From: a virus
IMG/VR virus record: IMGVR_UViG_3300036760_000945
Location: 1 to 64,000 of that record
Direction: 5' to 3' (one strand)
Length of the DNA stretch: 64,000 nt
The notes beneath the pieces were generated by a model. It saw only the letters and a program-made list of their open reading frames with translations. It made no database searches and had not been told where the DNA came from. Of this stretch, positions 41,567 through 50,245 are shown piece by piece (positions within the stretch are counted from its first letter, which is position 1; every line of letters starts with the position of its first letter). The translations under genes and the position numbers were made by a program.

Positions 41567-43087
41567 TTAAGCTACGATAGGCTCGGTATCCTTTCGGATA
41601 CCCGGTTTCTTGCTATTATCGGGCAGATTGCCTATGGGTTTTTGTGGTGCAGCCGCAGTCTCTTCCTTGATCTTAACCTTCTCTTCTTCGATGTCAGGAA
41701 TGTCACCAAAGAGGGACATGAGATGCTCCTGCGAGCCTAACTTGTATTTCGCGCGGATGCCAGCCTCATTGATAAGTGCAGTACGATCTACAGGCAACAT
41801 CGGTGCCCAGGAAATGATAAGCGGTGTAGCAATATGTTCCTCTGTGATCTCGTTGATACCCTTGATAGACATCATCTTCAATAAGATCCTGCAGAACTTA
41901 GCCAGGCCGACTGTCCAGAAGATGCGCTCCATCTCAGCGTGTGTGACCAGCGGCCACATCCTTGTAGAGAGGGTCAAGCTCGAACGTTGCGAACCCTCGT
42001 CTTCCCCATCTGCAACTGCCGGATGAATGGCCTCGCGGCGATAGATATCGTAAAGTTCTCCGCCAAGTCTAAGCATTACATCCGAAGCAGTTTTGAGAGA
42101 GACCGTCAGTAGGTCCGGGTTTGCCTCATTACCCGCAAGGCCTGTAGTACTGCCAAGGTCAAGGATGGGCCGGCCATCTATCTTCTTGACCTGTACAGCG
42201 CCTCTTACATTGCGCATTGCAATTGGCTGATGCGAGTCGTCGCTGACCGCATCGCCGGTATCTGCCCAGCGTAAGTTTATTTCTCTGATAACACCCTTGA
42301 TCATCTCAGAGATAATGGAGTTGCCAAGGAATGTAGTTGTCCGTAAGTGTGGGATATATTCTATTGGGACAACCCCAAAGGGATTTACGCCCTTTTGAGG
42401 CGTGTCACCGAACATGATTGTCTGCCCGTTGATCGCAATCTCGTATTCTTCTTCTGTCCAGTGTTCCGTATAGAAATACTTGAGGTCATTCTCGCTAAGG
42501 GCATACTCGGTCTTATAGGACTTGATATCGTCTTTGGTAATCTCCCTAACGATCCAGGCCTCTCTTAGCTCCCAATAATTGGCGCCTTTGGGAAAACCGA
42601 TGAACTCTTTTGGCGAGGGATTGAAAATGCCAATCCGCTTTTCTATTGGCAGCCAACTAGCACTAAAGACACAGCCGCGGAGGTATTGCGAGATAATTCC
42701 ATTCGAGATGAATAATGCGCCGCCGCCGTTGTCTTCAAAGACATTTTTCAGTGCCTTCTCGACCGCCTTGCCTTGTGTTTTCTTGCCCTTCTCTACATCA
42801 GCCAATATTCTGACCGGTACGCCTCCGTAGTGAATGCTGTCCAGTGTCTGCCCGAATAACGCCGATGTATGTCGCTCACAGGTACCCTTCAGCGGATTGA
42901 TCTTGATAGGGTATTTATCTATCTTCTTCCCGGAGGCAGTATCTACGGTGAAGTCGTCCAATTTGGCGCCGGAATACCAATCCTCGAGCATGGCATAGTT
43001 CTCGAGTTGGGTCATATAGGTCGTATACGGGAACCCCTTGAGTTCCTGAAGAGTAAAGGGTGCAGAGAAGTTTGTTAGCTCAGCCAT
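41567..43087 (-). CDS. portal protein, 506 aa
   Basis: Forms the dodecameric DNA channel at the capsid vertex. Size, position between terminase and scaffold, and composition fit: an N-terminal helical clamp-like part (QLENYAMLEDWYSGAKLDDF), a central alpha/beta wing (YFYTEHWTEEEYEIAINGQ), a helix-rich stem (LLTVSLKTASDVMLRLGGELYDIYRREAIHP) and a disordered charged C-terminus (EKVKIKEETAAAPQKP). The terminase gene ends about 660 bp upstream, with one small gene between. Confidence 0.82.
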   Translation of the reverse strand: MAELTNFSAPFTLQELKGFPYTTYMTQLENYAMLEDWYSGAKLDDFTVDTASGKKIDKYPIKINPLKGTCERHTSALFGQTLDSIHYGGVPVRILADVEKGKKTQGKAVEKALKNVFEDNGGGALFISNGIISQYLRGCVFSASWLPIEKRIGIFNPSPKEFIGFPKGANYWELREAWIVREITKDDIKSYKTEYALSENDLKYFYTEHWTEEEYEIAINGQTIMFGDTPQKGVNPFGVVPIEYIPHLRTTTFLGNSIISEMIKGVIREINLRWADTGDAVSDDSHQPIAMRNVRGAVQVKKIDGRPILDLGSTTGLAGNEANPDLLTVSLKTASDVMLRLGGELYDIYRREAIHPAVADGEDEGSQRSSLTLSTRMWPLVTHAEMERIFWTVGLAKFCRILLKMMSIKGINEITEEHIATPLIISWAPMLPVDRTALINEAGIRAKYKLGSQEHLMSLFGDIPDIEEEKVKIKEETAAAPQKPIGNLPDNSKKPGIRKDTEPIVA

Positions 43088-43747: not shown

Positions 43748-46414
43748 CTATCGAGGCCACGTCGTTGACGAACCTGCCTCGTCTCGCCTGCGGGTACGTA
43801 CTTCATTTCTATCATGTCGGCGCCCCGAGACAAGTCCAGGGCTATCATCGCCAGTCTCGCTGCTGTTTTCCTCTCCAAAATCGCCATAATAAGCCCGGAT
43901 CGCAAACGCACCCATTGCCAACGTTGCAACAACGTCTTGCGCCAGCTTGCCACCACTTGCTTTATCCGCGATAGGATCATAGTTTTTTAGTTGGCTTCCT
44001 ATGCCAGTACAGATCGAAGGCCATGAGAGCATCTTGCTTTCGAGCGATAGTCTCAGTGCAACAAGGTAACTATACCTTTTTGCGCCCGAAAAGTCAAGAC
44101 CGGTTATTGAAATGACCGACTTCTTCTTGCCGTAGATATAATCCGTGCTGATCAGCTCCGCCGTACTCTTCTGGGGCCCGGTATTGTCCACGGCAGCCAA
44201 TATGGGTCCATAAGTATCGATCCACTCGATAAAACGGCTCACAAAAGGCATGATCGAGCCTGCGCCATTACCCCACCAGAAAGCAACTATTGGACTATGC
44301 ACTGGCGCCTCTGTGACATCAAAAACGATGATACAGGGAGCATTTCGGGAGGGTGCCACGCCTGTGCCTGGGTCGCCAATGATGAAATATTGGCGTCCTG
44401 CCTTACGTGGCTGTCTGAGATAGAACGCACCCATGTGCGGCAAGGTCTCCATCTCATAACCAGCCTCGCCTTTGTCGATGGCATTCAGGACTATCTCTGA
44501 TTGCCCGGCATCCAAGCAGGGATCAACAGTCGAGGCCGGGAAGTAAGAACCCTTACCCTGTGGGCGGTCCCCGGTCATGAAACGGTTGTGCAGTTCTTTG
44601 GGGATCATCTTCAGCGCAAAGCGGATCTGTTTATCGGTCGTATTCTTGTTATACTTGGTGTCAATGTTGAATACCAGCCCGTCCTCTTTGTCCGCTGCTG
44701 CCATATCATAGAGTTGCCACAGCTCGGGGTTTTCCCACGGGTTAGAGATGAGCGAAAGCCGGCCTAGATAGGGGCGGTTCTCGGCAGTGCCGCCAGTAAG
44801 GCGGGTGACTAGGTTTGTCACCACCACCCCCAAATCGTCTATTTTCCCGGCTTCTTCGATATTGATCCAGTCGCCGCGGTAGGAAAAGATGTTTTCTGCA
44901 GTCCCCTCCTCACCCAATGTCTGAAATTCCAGAAGCGAGGAGAATTTCTTGGTGCCAATATAATACTCGAGGGCAACCTGCGGCCAGGGGCGCTTTGGCG
45001 CAGAGACAATGAGTTTTTCAAAGGGTGTGCCCTCGACCTGCTCCATTAGCGCTCGATACATAAGCATTGACTGCCAGGCACTGGGTGCAACATTCATAAA
45101 CTTGAATAATTGCGTCAGCGCCGCATGATAGGCGGCACCCATCACCACGCCGACGGTTTTGCCAGAATTATGAGAGACAACACCCTCCATAACATAATTT
45201 TCGTAGCCGGGAACATGGATATCATATAGATCTATTTCTCCAACATCCTCTATTTTAGTAATAATTGGTGTATAATAGTCCCACTTATTATTCTTGGGAG
45301 AGAAACATGGATCAGGAAGAACTTCAAATACTTGTTGATCAATTTGGGACACAGACGGCTGTAGCAAAGCGCCTCGGGATAAGACAGCAAGATCTCTGGT
45401 ATCTGGTAAAGAAAAATCACTGGCATATTCACTATGATATAACTCGCCGCAGAAAGAAGGGCTCGAAACTTGATCCTTATTCTCTAATACTGAAACATCT
45501 GGGAGATCTTGGTTGGAGTTGCCAGAGAATTGTTGATGCCCTCGAACTAAAGACCGATCCTGAGCACGTTCGTCGCTGGTTGGTTGTCCATTGTCCCCAA
45601 AAACGGAACAGGAAGCACGGTGGTGTGGGGGAAAGAAGTCCTGCCTTTGTCGATGGTGACTATTATAATAGGAAGGATAATTCTTATAACTTTGTACCCG
45701 CGCCAGAGGGGTATATGGGTCAGAAGAAATCAAATGGTTGGGTTGCAGAACATCGTCTTGTCGTTGAAAAGGAACTTGGCCGACTTCTTCATCCGGGCGA
45801 GGTTGTACATCATATTGATGGGGATGGAAAGAATAATCTCCCTGGAAACCTGATGACTTTCCCGACAAATCGCGAACATCTACTGTGGCACTGGGAGCAA
45901 ATGCAGGCAAAATATGAGGAGCGATTAGAACATCTCCGAGCCGTAGATCGCGAGTACGTACAAACCCTTGGCTGGCAGTCATAAAACGATGATCCAGAGA
46001 GACGGTAATTGTATTACCATTAGAGAAGGAAAGTCTTTTTGCCCTGGCCTTTCCCTTGTAGAACGGCAGTGTTGCCTGGACCATTGCCCATCCTGATATG
46101 CCGCGGGCTAAAACAACTGGCGCCCTCTTATTATCAAGAAGCCACCTAAATGATACATATCTCCCAAGTTCTACATCATAGAGATGACTATCAATGTCGG
46201 CGCAACTGATCCCACAGATGGCAACAATAAACGATTGCGTTGCCATACACATTGTTTCTTGCCATTTACCCTCTGACTCGAAGTTCCAGTCCAGCATCCA
46301 TCCGTGTTCTTGGTTTGGTTTTCTGAACCAGTAATCACAGAAAATATTGGGATTGGCCGCCCCGGCCCTAAGAATTTCAATCTCGGCAGCAGTCATTGCG
46401 TGAATCGAGGGCAT
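43748..46414 (-). CDS. terminase large subunit containing an intein, 888 aa precursor
   Basis: DNA-packaging motor. Extein one is residues 1-70 ending VAICGIS; extein two starts SGKTVGVVMGAAYHA, so splicing rebuilds the Walker A motif CGISSGKT. Walker B-like DWINIEEAG follows in extein two. The C-terminal RNase H-like nuclease shows FIIGDPGTG, PILAAVDNTGP and LAQDVVATLAMGA, with the acidic residues expected for metal binding. The spliced product would be 542 aa, normal for the family. The intein (residues 71-416) carries an antisense gene. A small subunit is not recognised in the window. Confidence 0.9.
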   Translation of the reverse strand: MPSIHAMTAAEIEILRAGAANPNIFCDYWFRKPNQEHGWMLDWNFESEGKWQETMCMATQSFIVAICGISCADIDSHLYDVELGRYVSFRWLLDNKRAPVVLARGISGWAMVQATLPFYKGKARAKRLSFSNGNTITVSLDHRFMTASQGFVRTRDLRLGDVLIAPHILPAFAPSATVDVRDLSGKSSGFQGDYSFHPHQYDVQPRPDEEVGQVPFQRQDDVLQPNHLISSDPYTPLARVQSYKNYPSYYNSHHRQRQDFFPPHHRASCSVFGDNGQPTSDERAQDRSLVRGHQQFSGNSNQDLPDVSVLENKDQVSSPSFCGELYHSEYASDFSLPDTRDLAVLSRGALLQPSVSQIDQQVFEVLPDPCFSPKNNKWDYYTPIITKIEDVGEIDLYDIHVPGYENYVMEGVVSHNSGKTVGVVMGAAYHAALTQLFKFMNVAPSAWQSMLMYRALMEQVEGTPFEKLIVSAPKRPWPQVALEYYIGTKKFSSLLEFQTLGEEGTAENIFSYRGDWINIEEAGKIDDLGVVVTNLVTRLTGGTAENRPYLGRLSLISNPWENPELWQLYDMAAADKEDGLVFNIDTKYNKNTTDKQIRFALKMIPKELHNRFMTGDRPQGKGSYFPASTVDPCLDAGQSEIVLNAIDKGEAGYEMETLPHMGAFYLRQPRKAGRQYFIIGDPGTGVAPSRNAPCIIVFDVTEAPVHSPIVAFWWGNGAGSIMPFVSRFIEWIDTYGPILAAVDNTGPQKSTAELISTDYIYGKKKSVISITGLDFSGAKRYSYLVALRLSLESKMLSWPSICTGIGSQLKNYDPIADKASGGKLAQDVVATLAMGAFAIRAYYGDFGEENSSETGDDSPGLVSGRRHDRNEVRTRRRDEAGSSTTWPR
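45271..45276 (+). promoter_or_regulatory. candidate promoter of the antisense HNH gene
   Basis: TATAAT at 45271-45276, 31 nt before the ATG at 45307, with GGGAGA between. It lies within the C-terminal splicing half of the intein. No -35 hexamer was recognised. Confidence 0.55.
45307..45984 (+). CDS. HNH homing endonuclease encoded antisense within the terminase intein, 225 aa
   Basis: The start at 45307 (MDQEELQILVDQFG) has GGGAGA 6 nt upstream. The N-terminus contains HTH-like helices (TQTAVAKRLGIRQQDLWYLV and ILKHLGDLGWSCQRIVDAL) that could read the target. The nuclease core is at about 130-190: WVAEHRLVVEKELGRLLHPG, then EVVHHIDGDGKNNLPGNLM and TNREHLLWHWE, with the paired catalytic histidines, the middle Asn and the final His in place. 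It lies wholly inside the intein and overlaps its coding sequence for 226 codons on the opposite strand. Both frames are open. Confidence 0.9.
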   Translation: MDQEELQILVDQFGTQTAVAKRLGIRQQDLWYLVKKNHWHIHYDITRRRKKGSKLDPYSLILKHLGDLGWSCQRIVDALELKTDPEHVRRWLVVHCPQKRNRKHGGVGERSPAFVDGDYYNRKDNSYNFVPAPEGYMGQKKSNGWVAEHRLVVEKELGRLLHPGEVVHHIDGDGKNNLPGNLMTFPTNREHLLWHWEQMQAKYEERLEHLRAVDREYVQTLGWQS

Positions 46415-48234: not shown

Positions 48235-49071
48235 TTATTCTTTCTTGAGATATTTCAGTCGTACCCAGCCGAGTGGTATCCTGGCCCAGTCATTTACAAT
48301 ATCGCTTACCACAACAATCTGCCCAATAGCTATGCGGCTAACTATTTTACAATTGAGGCCATCGTTAGGGGTTTTAAAGATCCATGAGGCCGCCAAGACG
48401 GTATAGTTTCCTACTGGCGGGGGCGAAGGAGGAAGAATTGCCGGCGGCGTAGATGCGAATTTATACAATTCTTCTACGGTCCCGTGGAATAGGTTTTGAT
48501 CTACGTCAAGACTTTCGCAACCGTATGCTTCGCCTTTACCTCTATCTGTATACTGCCAAAACGTCCATGTTGCCCATGGCCTGGGAGTCTTTATAAAGAT
48601 TTCCCAACTATACCATGCCAGCCAGAATGGGAATATTTTCCAGCCAATGTCTACCGAACCAAATTCGTTCCAGTAATAATAACCGGAATAAATCGCGGGG
48701 ATCTTCCCAAGTTTATCCTTTACATACTGTAGGAAGTTCCACAACCTCCCCCGTGCTTCGGCAGGACTTGGCTGGCCACTTGTTAACTTTTGCTCAAAGT
48801 CACAAACGGGCGGCAATTCACCGGGATCATCCTTGAGCAAACCCGTAAACAGCTTAGCCTGTTCGAGTTCACTCATTCTAAAATCCAGATAGTGATATGC
48901 ACCGCGTAAAAGCCCTACTTTCTTTGCGGCTCTCCAGTATTCTAAGAAACGTAAATCTGCAATACGCTGAGACGCCTTGATATATACAAATGTTGCACCG
49001 TTCGCAAGCATTTTTGCAAAGTCTACTTCACCATCCCACCAACTTATGTCTACGCCAATTGCTCTAGTCAT
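48235..49071 (-). CDS. endolysin: GH25 lysozyme with SH3-like wall-binding domain, 278 aa
   Basis: The start at 49071 (MTRAIGVDISWWDGEVDF) has AAGGAG 8 nt upstream. The GH25 barrel shows GVDISWWDG, FVYIKASQR, GAYHYLDF, LPPVCDFEQ (catalytic Asp-x-Glu) and WTFWQYTDRG, with DVDQNLF closing the domain near residue 200. The C-terminal about 60 residues (YTVLAASWIFKTPNDGLNC to GWVRLKYLKKE) are SH3-like. No signal peptide, so export needs a holin. Cleaves peptidoglycan glycan strands at lysis. Confidence 0.9.
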   Translation of the reverse strand: MTRAIGVDISWWDGEVDFAKMLANGATFVYIKASQRIADLRFLEYWRAAKKVGLLRGAYHYLDFRMSELEQAKLFTGLLKDDPGELPPVCDFEQKLTSGQPSPAEARGRLWNFLQYVKDKLGKIPAIYSGYYYWNEFGSVDIGWKIFPFWLAWYSWEIFIKTPRPWATWTFWQYTDRGKGEAYGCESLDVDQNLFHGTVEELYKFASTPPAILPPSPPPVGNYTVLAASWIFKTPNDGLNCKIVSRIAIGQIVVVSDIVNDWARIPLGWVRLKYLKKE

Positions 49072-49375
49072 GATTTTTCTCCTTGCTATCAAGATCTTTG
49101 AGTAACAACGAGGTATCCATGCCAATGTCTCCAAGAAACTGGTATAGCGAGGTTTCGAGGCCCGATATCTGCTCGTGGGGCAAACTAAACTGGAGATGAT
49201 AATTTATCGCTTCAAGTACTTCGTGTAACACCGTTGACTCCTGCGACTGCCTGTGTTGGTCCGGGTCAACATTGATAATCTGTTTCACGGTATGGAGTCT
49301 CCCGGCCTGATCCATGCCGCCGTTCTCCATAGAGGGCGAATATTTCAATTTATAATTGTAGCCGAATATTCTCAT
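49064..49375 (-). CDS. metallopeptidase-like hypothetical protein, 103 aa
   Basis: A helix with TVLHEVLEAINYH resembles the HExxH zinc helix, but the fifth position is Glu instead of His. Similar HEhhEA motifs occur in small phage proteins near lysis or neck genes. A second helix (HEQISGLETSLYQFLGDIG) completes it. Zinc binding is uncertain. It begins inside the tail of the upstream endonuclease gene (4 nt overlap) and ends 8 nt into the lysozyme gene. Confidence 0.6.
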   Translation of the reverse strand: MRIFGYNYKLKYSPSMENGGMDQAGRLHTVKQIINVDPDQHRQSQESTVLHEVLEAINYHLQFSLPHEQISGLETSLYQFLGDIGMDTSLLLKDLDSKEKNHD

Positions 49376-49980
49376 TTTGTCTCCTTCTTTCCTACTTTCT
49401 GCAGATAATTAATTGCACTTATTAGAATTTCTGTCGAGTCGTTGGCACTGCCAAGCATTGTATTGCATTTAGTACATAGAAATCCACGGATTTTACCCGT
49501 AGAATGATCATGATCTACGGCAAGATGTCTCCCATTGGGAGAACCGCCACAGATAGCGCAAATGCCTCCTTGATTAACAAGGATCACACTATATTCCTCA
49601 AGAGTTAGGCCATGGTCTCTTTTAAGACTGCCTCTTCTGCCTCTGATAGTACCATTTTCTTTGTGGCTTCTGTGATATTCTCTGTTCTTGGCGCGAATTT
49701 CTTCTCCTTTTTCTTTATAATAACTGATCCCATAGGAGCATCTTTCCTTTTTATGCTCCTCATAATATTTTTTGCTACCGGCTACTATTTCTTCACTGTG
49801 CCTCTGGCGATATTCGGCTTGTTTAGCCAAAATAATTTCCTTATTCTTCTTATAATAATTATGACTTCTGGAGGTAATTTTCCTCTTGTTTTCTATATAA
49901 TACCTGGCATCATAGGCACTTGTTTCCTCTTTATGTTTCTTGCGATACTCTCTCTGATATTCTCTCCTATTTGCCATCGG
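49372..49980 (-). CDS. endonuclease VII-like homing nuclease, 202 aa
   Basis: The start at 49980 (MANRREYQREYRKK) has AAAGGAG upstream. The N-terminal 115 residues consist of about six Lys/Tyr-rich repeats (EYRKKHKEE, YYIENKRKI, YYKKNKEII, EYRQRHSEE, YYEEHKKER, YYKEKGEEI), which would form a basic helical DNA-binding array. The C-terminal core is YSVILVNQGGICAICGG, then LAVDHDHSTGKIRGFLCTKC, with CxxC, DHDH and CxxC. The last codons (KKETK) contain the AAGGAG used by the downstream gene. Confidence 0.88.
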   Translation of the reverse strand, partial: PMANRREYQREYRKKHKEETSAYDARYYIENKRKITSRSHNYYKKNKEIILAKQAEYRQRHSEEIVAGSKKYYEEHKKERCSYGISYYKEKGEEIRAKNREYHRSHKENGTIRGRRGSLKRDHGLTLEEYSVILVNQGGICAICGGSPNGRHLAVDHDHSTGKIRGFLCTKCNTMLGSANDSTEILISAINYLQKVGKKETK

Positions 49981-50245
49981 TCTTCTCCTTTTTTGATAGA
50001 AGCCAAAAAATAGCCAGGTATTGATCGGCAATGCGCCGATCGCTTTCTTTCTCTTGTTCACTCAGTTCCTTGTATTTCCGGGACATTTGCGCGGTCCAGC
50101 GATCAACGAAGTCCTTCGGCAGCGTCCAGGTGCCGTTATCGTTGAATACACCCTTGCCGAACATATAACTGAGCCACTTCGTCCATACTCGGTGTGCGTG
50201 GTCTGCTATTGCCTCTCGCAGAGGTTGTTTGACATCATCGCCCAT
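49967..50245 (-). CDS. hypothetical protein, 92 aa, common phage type
   Basis: The pattern ADHAHRVWTKWLSYMFGKG, then GTWTLPKDFVDRWTAQMSRK, then YKELSEQEKESDRRIADQ recurs in many phages as a small protein of unknown function. Trp-rich and helical. Its own promoter lies about 32 nt upstream. Overlaps the endonuclease gene by 14 nt. Confidence 0.7.
   Translation of the reverse strand: MGDDVKQPLREAIADHAHRVWTKWLSYMFGKGVFNDNGTWTLPKDFVDRWTAQMSRKYKELSEQEKESDRRIADQYLAIFWLLSKKEKTDGK

Follow-up and report, generated by a model that had tools for sequence, protein, structure and literature searches.

In conventional inteins the homing endonuclease, whether LAGLIDADG or HNH, is an in-frame domain, and its dose is tied to the synthesis of the host protein. 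A different solution is reportedly found in the 'fractured genes' that Dassa and colleagues are said to have presented in 2009, where split inteins flank a free-standing homing gene. The viral terminase intein analysed here is similar to that system in apparently holding a homing gene with its own expression between intein halves. However, the host gene of the split-intein system is physically broken and relies on trans-splicing, whereas ours keeps one continuous open reading frame (ORF) by overprinting. In cyanophage CL131, the dCTP deaminase contains HintN and an in-frame HNH_3 domain, and self-excision has been shown (PMC6293099). There, as in our locus, Hint halves flank a homing endonuclease insert of the same HNH_3 Pfam family, but the CL131 nuclease is an in-frame part of the spliced-out protein while ours is a separate protein read from the other strand. 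The large terminase (TerL) of phiCbK also carries an intein; an antisense HNH gene goes unmentioned in the excerpted account of it, with which our locus is compared by description only (PMC3556154).

Another relevant comparison is the ShiLan domain, an HNH concealed out of frame within the DNA methylase genes of actinophages (Arsenault et al., 2025; PMC11855218). Both systems are mobile, and both place an HNH homing-type gene in another frame of a host gene that stays open, with the filler predicted to be a loop in the case of ShiLan. On the other hand, the ShiLan HNH lies on the host strand of a methylase gene, with no Hint or splicing domain and no detectable ribosome binding site (RBS; PMC11855218), whereas antisense-HNH inteins use the opposite strand within a complete intein of the terminase P-loop, and an RBS and promoters are detectable in many loci. 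The opposite strand and complete Hint domain thus set our locus apart from the ShiLan type. For overlapping reading frames, the ShiLan report cites bioRxiv 10.1101/2025.01.02.630785 ('Actinobacteriophage Inteins: ... Non-Canonical Architecture') and Gorbalenya 1998 ('Non-canonical inteins'), which, as they are cited there, may describe related architectures. Apart from that preprint and Gorbalenya 1998, literature searches on inteins with an endonuclease on the antisense or opposite strand turned up no precedent beyond ShiLan.

The interrupted terminase and the gene opposite its linker

The window (the whole 64,000-nucleotide stretch analysed) comes from a virus record of 82,851 bp. Its terminase is one continuous 888-aa ORF, as in relatives, which is not a split-intein layout (Table 1). 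A sequence-only reading had proposed a Walker A intein with both splicing halves, and both the profiles that match this ORF (Pfam Intein_splicing PF14890, E=5e-12; intein_Cterm TIGR01443) and the predicted Hint fold bear this out; every element that it listed lies at the coordinates it gave. The intein runs from C71 to N416 of the ORF, with the junctions AICGIS/CADID...VVSHN/SGKT (slashes mark splice points), and has the class 1 residues C1, block B H72, H345-N346 and a +1 Ser; among 35–36 intein homologues C1, H72 and N346 are invariant and H345 is at least 90% conserved. In an AlphaFold model using homologue alignments, residues 1–98 and 308–346 adopt the Hint fold (pLDDT mostly 93–98, ~85 just before the linker), which Foldseek matched to the solved inteins NpuDnaB (4o1r, TM 0.84) and Ssp DnaB mini-intein M86 (TM 0.77; both target-normalised). 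Judged by motifs and modelled fold the insert is a class 1 intein, and protein splicing is predicted because the splicing motifs are intact and the interrupted P-loop is essential.

The two Hint parts are separated by a linker of ~207 residues (about 100–306) with hardly any predicted secondary structure (AlphaFold pLDDT about 38–54, disordered). That the central 226 sense codons lack an endonuclease motif, as had been noted, is confirmed: a search of the sense linker found no domain, and the canonical in-frame endonuclease is absent from between the Hint halves. On the other strand these 226 codons mirror an HNH gene that is complete. Its 225-aa product matched phage HNH families (to 2e-17) as well as HNH_3 (PF13392, E=7.5e-9); the HNH protein and the intein, searched separately as had been recommended, each found their own families. 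Around the core motif EHRLVVEKELGRLLHPGEVVHHIDGDGKNN...H, residues H149, H168, H169, N177 and N181 are invariant and H191 is at least 90% conserved among 40 nested HNH proteins. Three parts can be told apart in the AlphaFold model of the protein (mean pLDDT 87): an HTH-like region at the N terminus, another bundle of helices and an HNH core of the bba-metal-like type. Its top solved-structure match is weak (I-HmuI, PDB 1u3e; Foldseek E=0.2, probability 0.66, identity 20%); the two have in common an HNH core with DNA-binding helices, but I-HmuI is encoded by a group I intron and the sequence identity is low. By motif the plus-strand protein is an HNH_3-type homing endonuclease, for which site-specific cleavage is predicted. 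The gene also has the Shine-Dalgarno (SD) sequence and TATAAT originally ascribed to it, although a search for a strong promoter ahead of it found only these, with no recognisable -35; GTGTATAATA is found upstream of the HNH gene in relatives L002 and L003 too. Taken together, we think it very likely that the locus is a mobile class 1 terminase P-loop intein whose homing endonuclease is a separate opposite-strand gene, with splicing, cleavage, homing and antisense expression as its predicted activities.

Table 1. Coordinates of the interrupted terminase, its intein and the opposite-strand gene in the window.
Feature	Position	Strand	Basis
Portal gene (SPP1_portal), neighbour of terminase	41567-43087	-	profile match
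Large terminase (TerL) precursor, intein-interrupted, 888 aa	43748-46414	-	PHROG terminase large subunit E=2.9e-5; adjoins portal
C-extein: SGKT ... terminase ATPase + nuclease	43751-45166	-	translation; comparison with relatives
Intein, 346 aa, C1...HN, in Walker A P-loop (ICGIS/SGKT)	45167-46204	-	Intein profiles; AlphaFold Hint fold
C-terminal Hint splicing half, residues 308-346, ending VVSHN	45167-45283	-	pLDDT 96-98; TIGR01443
TATAAT, possible -10 of internal promoter	45271-45276	+	no good -35 in front
Linker/filler, intein residues 99-307, mirror of HNH gene, predicted disordered	45284-45910	-	pLDDT 38-54
Shine-Dalgarno GGGAGAG of HNH gene	45296-45302	+	4 nt before ATG
HNH homing endonuclease gene (putative), 225 aa, antisense to linker	45307-45984	+	HNH_3; PHROG HNH; kept in L006/L007; pLDDT 87
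HNH N-terminal helix-turn-helix-like domain (YdaS/Cro-like)	45313-45414	+	weak Pfam: YdaS_toxin E=1e-3, P22_Cro; three helices H3-36 in model
HNH catalytic core EHRLVVEKELGRLLHPGEVVHHIDGDGKNN...H	45742-45891	+	residue conservation, 40 nested HNH proteins
N-terminal Hint splicing half, intein residues 1-98	45911-46204	-	pLDDT 85-98
N-extein = terminase N-terminus, last residues AICGIS	46205-46414	-	junction reading; homologous to L002

Distribution and mobility of antisense-HNH inteins

HNH-first searches of viral contigs, classified by intein models, gave 110 virus loci with an antisense HNH gene inside an intein, including the window and three cultured-phage loci; these form 75 clusters (separated at below 80% HNH identity). 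The frame relation is identical in all 110, and none of the classified intein loci had an in-frame HNH. Intein_splicing (PF14890) scored in 30 of 33 scanned host ORFs, and most hosts are terminases by PHROGs. The insertion sites vary (GGNR/SGKT; ANRIGK/T; a Walker B-like site in L081 and L084; sites in helicase-like genes, e.g. L019). In a tree, 73 of the 75 nested clusters fall into one supported group (97/92); since L081 and L084 branch outside it, antisense nesting probably has at least two origins. Among cultured phages, the carriers are Pectobacterium phages Koroua and Ymer, Dickeya phage Setonix and Pseudoalteromonas phage PHS3. The double coding accounts for annotation conflicts in such records: in the Pectobacterium phage hits (L085, PQ008972.1; L091, OP748252.2; and others), as in both annotated records of the Koroua, Ymer and Setonix set, the terminase goes as a hypothetical protein and the antisense HNH gene is missed, while in PHS3 (L087, KX912252.1 17336-19314) the HNH is annotated and the terminase is truncated to its C-terminal part (1,176 nt), the full terminase-intein ORF overlapping the HNH gene on the opposite strand.

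We also searched intein-first, with no HNH required, and all 46 long inteins found (46/46) had an antisense HNH in the same frame; because the search patterns came from HNH-bearing inteins, this census describes one Hint subfamily and not all inteins. As for homologues with an in-frame endonuclease or with none, which the sequence-only reading had singled out as informative, there was no in-frame HNH among the loci classified, and the HNH-less complete inteins are mini-inteins of 132–144 aa from which the linker has gone too (L317, L321/L322, L325). In L328 the HNH is shortened, and the linker by the same amount. A linker kept with no trace of HNH coding, the result that would have refuted the sequence-only reading, was sought and none was found, L337 being a partial case in which an in-frame stop lies within an otherwise recognisable HNH while the sense frame is open, as would be expected of a decaying homing gene. 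Beyond these loci, single-sequence searches with the HNH and the intein (INPHARED, viral contigs) and a search of GTDB genomes with an HNH alignment returned nothing or partial HNH cores only, and an HNH search of plasmids only partial cores.

Several comparisons bear on mobility. An uninterrupted GGNR-SGKT site is found in at least 120 viral contigs, some of which have exteins 94–96% identical to those of intein-bearing alleles. Conversely, the inteins of L064 and L074 share 95.5% DNA identity, compared with 61% and 65% for their exteins. On the sequence evidence, empty sites together with a near-identical intein in divergent terminases show that the intein is mobile. Two further pairs suggest replacement of one intein by another at a single P-loop site: exteins of L143 and L156 are 91–96% identical with inteins only 57% identical (DNA), and L035 and L160 have nearly identical terminases but inteins of 74.5% DNA identity.

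The same observations bear on whether the antisense HNH could be no homing enzyme at all but a cofactor that the terminase uses in packaging DNA and that the intein shelters. Most nested-HNH hosts are indeed terminases, and terminase-adjacent HNH proteins are generally known to serve packaging in some phages (a role mentioned in PMC11855218). Yet neither intein nor HNH is present in closely related terminases, mini-intein terminases have no HNH, the nested HNH family also occurs in helicase-like genes (L019) and at differing terminase positions, and the intein transfers between divergent terminases, making a packaging role unlikely. Returning to the homing reading, we lean towards the view that antisense-HEG inteins form a large class of mobile inteins in tailed viruses, one that is ancient and has escaped description until now. 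The strand opposite the linker would carry the nuclease gene, always overprinted in the same frame relation, and the code for the C-Hint half, or DNA next to it, would contain the promoter and RBS of that gene. Such a class would have arisen at least twice and would span the full homing cycle (empty site, full element, decayed HNH, mini-intein).

Some methylase genes offer a parallel. ShiLan-like HNH genes, in another frame and with no splicing domain, were seen in methylases of viral contigs L009, L020, L028, L045, L057 and L078, and their frame offset is that of intein-borne same-strand HNH genes. The latter, which fall in the ShiLan clade as well, occur at a constant offset in methylase genes with an apparent intein (G/C...TGN/SGFPKS; L011 4088-6625, L026 989-3226, L040 4016-6115, L060 4037-6133, L089 1558-3912), apparently a second overprinting architecture that links ShiLan-type insertions to inteins.

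Expression signals and coding constraints on the two strands

An SD sequence precedes the first HNH ATG in 38 of 75 clusters, compared with 9% of out-of-frame control ATGs, and sigma-70-like promoters lie upstream of the HNH inside the intein in 12 of 75 (1.75 expected), with a perfect TTGACA in 23/75 (2.8 expected) and TATAAT in 18/75 (5.3 expected). These enrichments support independent expression of the HNH gene for the class as a whole. They speak, indirectly, for the earlier suggestion that the nuclease is expressed at a different time from the terminase; the window itself has the SD and the TATAAT but no recognisable -35, and separate timing at this locus is conjectural. In L042, L022, L150 and relatives (GGNR/SGKT group) the nested HNH has no SD, and some have TATAAT very near the first ATG, a sign that their starts may be leaderless or that another start codon is used. 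The sigma-70-like promoters, directed in some loci against the terminase from inside the intein, could also mean that the main effect of the antisense gene is to lower terminase expression by way of its RNA or promoter, the nuclease being of lesser importance. Many loci have no detectable promoter, however, and the strong protein-level selection on the HNH described below also makes this quite improbable.

How exceptional is the double-open frame? The figure first given, about once in 50,000 for the second strand, stands as the random-sequence value ((61/64)^226, ~1/51,000 for 226 open codons); when the window HNH is shuffled among synonymous codons the sense frame stays open in 1/2000 trials (5.5 stops expected, 0 seen). 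For a set of 49 nested HNH genes, synonymous shuffles predict 374 antisense stops and none occurs; dipeptides of Phe-[Ile/Met/Thr/Asn/Lys], which force a stop in this frame, are likewise absent (34 expected). In contrast, 34 other (free) HNH relatives have 214 antisense stops (252 expected) and 34 such dipeptides (49 expected). The arrangement also recurs in two independent relatives (L002/L004 and L003) whose terminases are 50% and 45% identical, with an antisense HNH in the same place; the HNH proteins are 65% and 52% identical to that of the window, respectively, and the facing linkers 25–38%. We consider the double-open frame to be beyond chance because it recurs both in these 45–50%-identical terminases and in ~75 more distant clusters. 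An artefact of codon composition or assembly can be dismissed as next to impossible, for although codon bias does yield long antisense ORFs, the frame stays open in 0–1% of synonymous shuffles for every nested gene, cultured and independently sequenced phages show it, and free HNH relatives lack it.

In the common frame relation, HNH codon positions 1, 2 and 3 face sense positions 1, 3 and 2, respectively, and substitutions were compared by sense position (L005–L007 are loci L002–L004 re-oriented into this relation). Between the window and L006, the N side has 0.28/0.23/0.63 differences per codon (sense positions 1/2/3), the overlap 0.27/0.51/0.23 and the C side 0.39/0.29/0.65; for L023 and L041 the values in the same order are 0.30/0.19/0.52, 0.10/0.44/0.10 and 0.19/0.12/0.48. 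At the overlap edges the sense position with most differences flips from 3 to 2, both in window/L006 and in nine other pairs, and thus the site that changes freely within the overlap is HNH codon position 3. Consistent with this interpretation, the linker is the fastest-evolving part of the sense frame in pairwise alignments, and nearly every pair is more alike in the HNH than in the linker (e.g. 86% vs 52% identity). As the sequence-only reading had anticipated, then, these alignments show that selection acts on the plus-strand HNH frame, the terminase strand imposing only that its frame stay open.

The periodicity equally contradicts the idea that selection now keeps the sense linker and that what faces it on the plus strand is a relic HNH, decayed or unexpressed. 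One might point to the weak promoter of the window and to the stop within the HNH of one relative, L337; but most substitutions fall at HNH position 3, conservation is lowest in the sense linker, the catalytic residues are invariant and the linker disappears together with the HNH, so that a relic is very improbable. With the HNH frame taken as the selected one, a filler that need only be open and harmless would leave the nuclease gene free synonymously, barring stops on the terminase strand. We also considered whether synonymous codons of the HNH gene are chosen so as to adjust how hydrophilic the linker is, HNH position 3 facing sense position 2, and dropped the idea because the signal across 75 loci is weak (mean z -0.38, expected direction in 60%; window z=-2.0).

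Proposed homing cycle and neighbouring genes

The original proposal of an antisense-nested homing gene, with its mirror translated as filler, survived every test and is supported; homing itself we infer. Read on the terminase strand, the element would give a Hint domain whose halves are joined by ~207 disordered filler residues, and the intein would then excise itself to leave a working terminase, nothing being required of the filler except an open frame and harmlessness. The opposite strand, translated from a start of its own that lies within the intein close to the code for the C-terminal Hint half, would give an HTH-HNH nuclease that cuts intein-less terminase alleles at their P-loop codons; during repair of the cut allele the entire intein, and with it both genes, would be copied in. 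One stretch of DNA would in this way encode two proteins, an enzyme in one direction and a harmless spacer in the other, and the nuclease would be released from the frame, strand and promoter of the host protein with no added length to the element. As natural full-length antisense overprinting in 75 sequence clusters, these loci allow direct tests of how overlapping genes stay open, and they are a source of natural mini-inteins and of new HNH nucleases with predictable P-loop targets.

Two other minus-strand genes of the window deserve mention. An endonuclease VII-like protein (PF02945, E=4e-23; 49372-50061) with a repetitive basic N-terminal region is possibly a second free-standing homing-type nuclease near the terminase. 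The ORF at 48235-49134, judged by eye, resembles a lysozyme of glycoside hydrolase family 25 whose C-terminal part is SH3-like.
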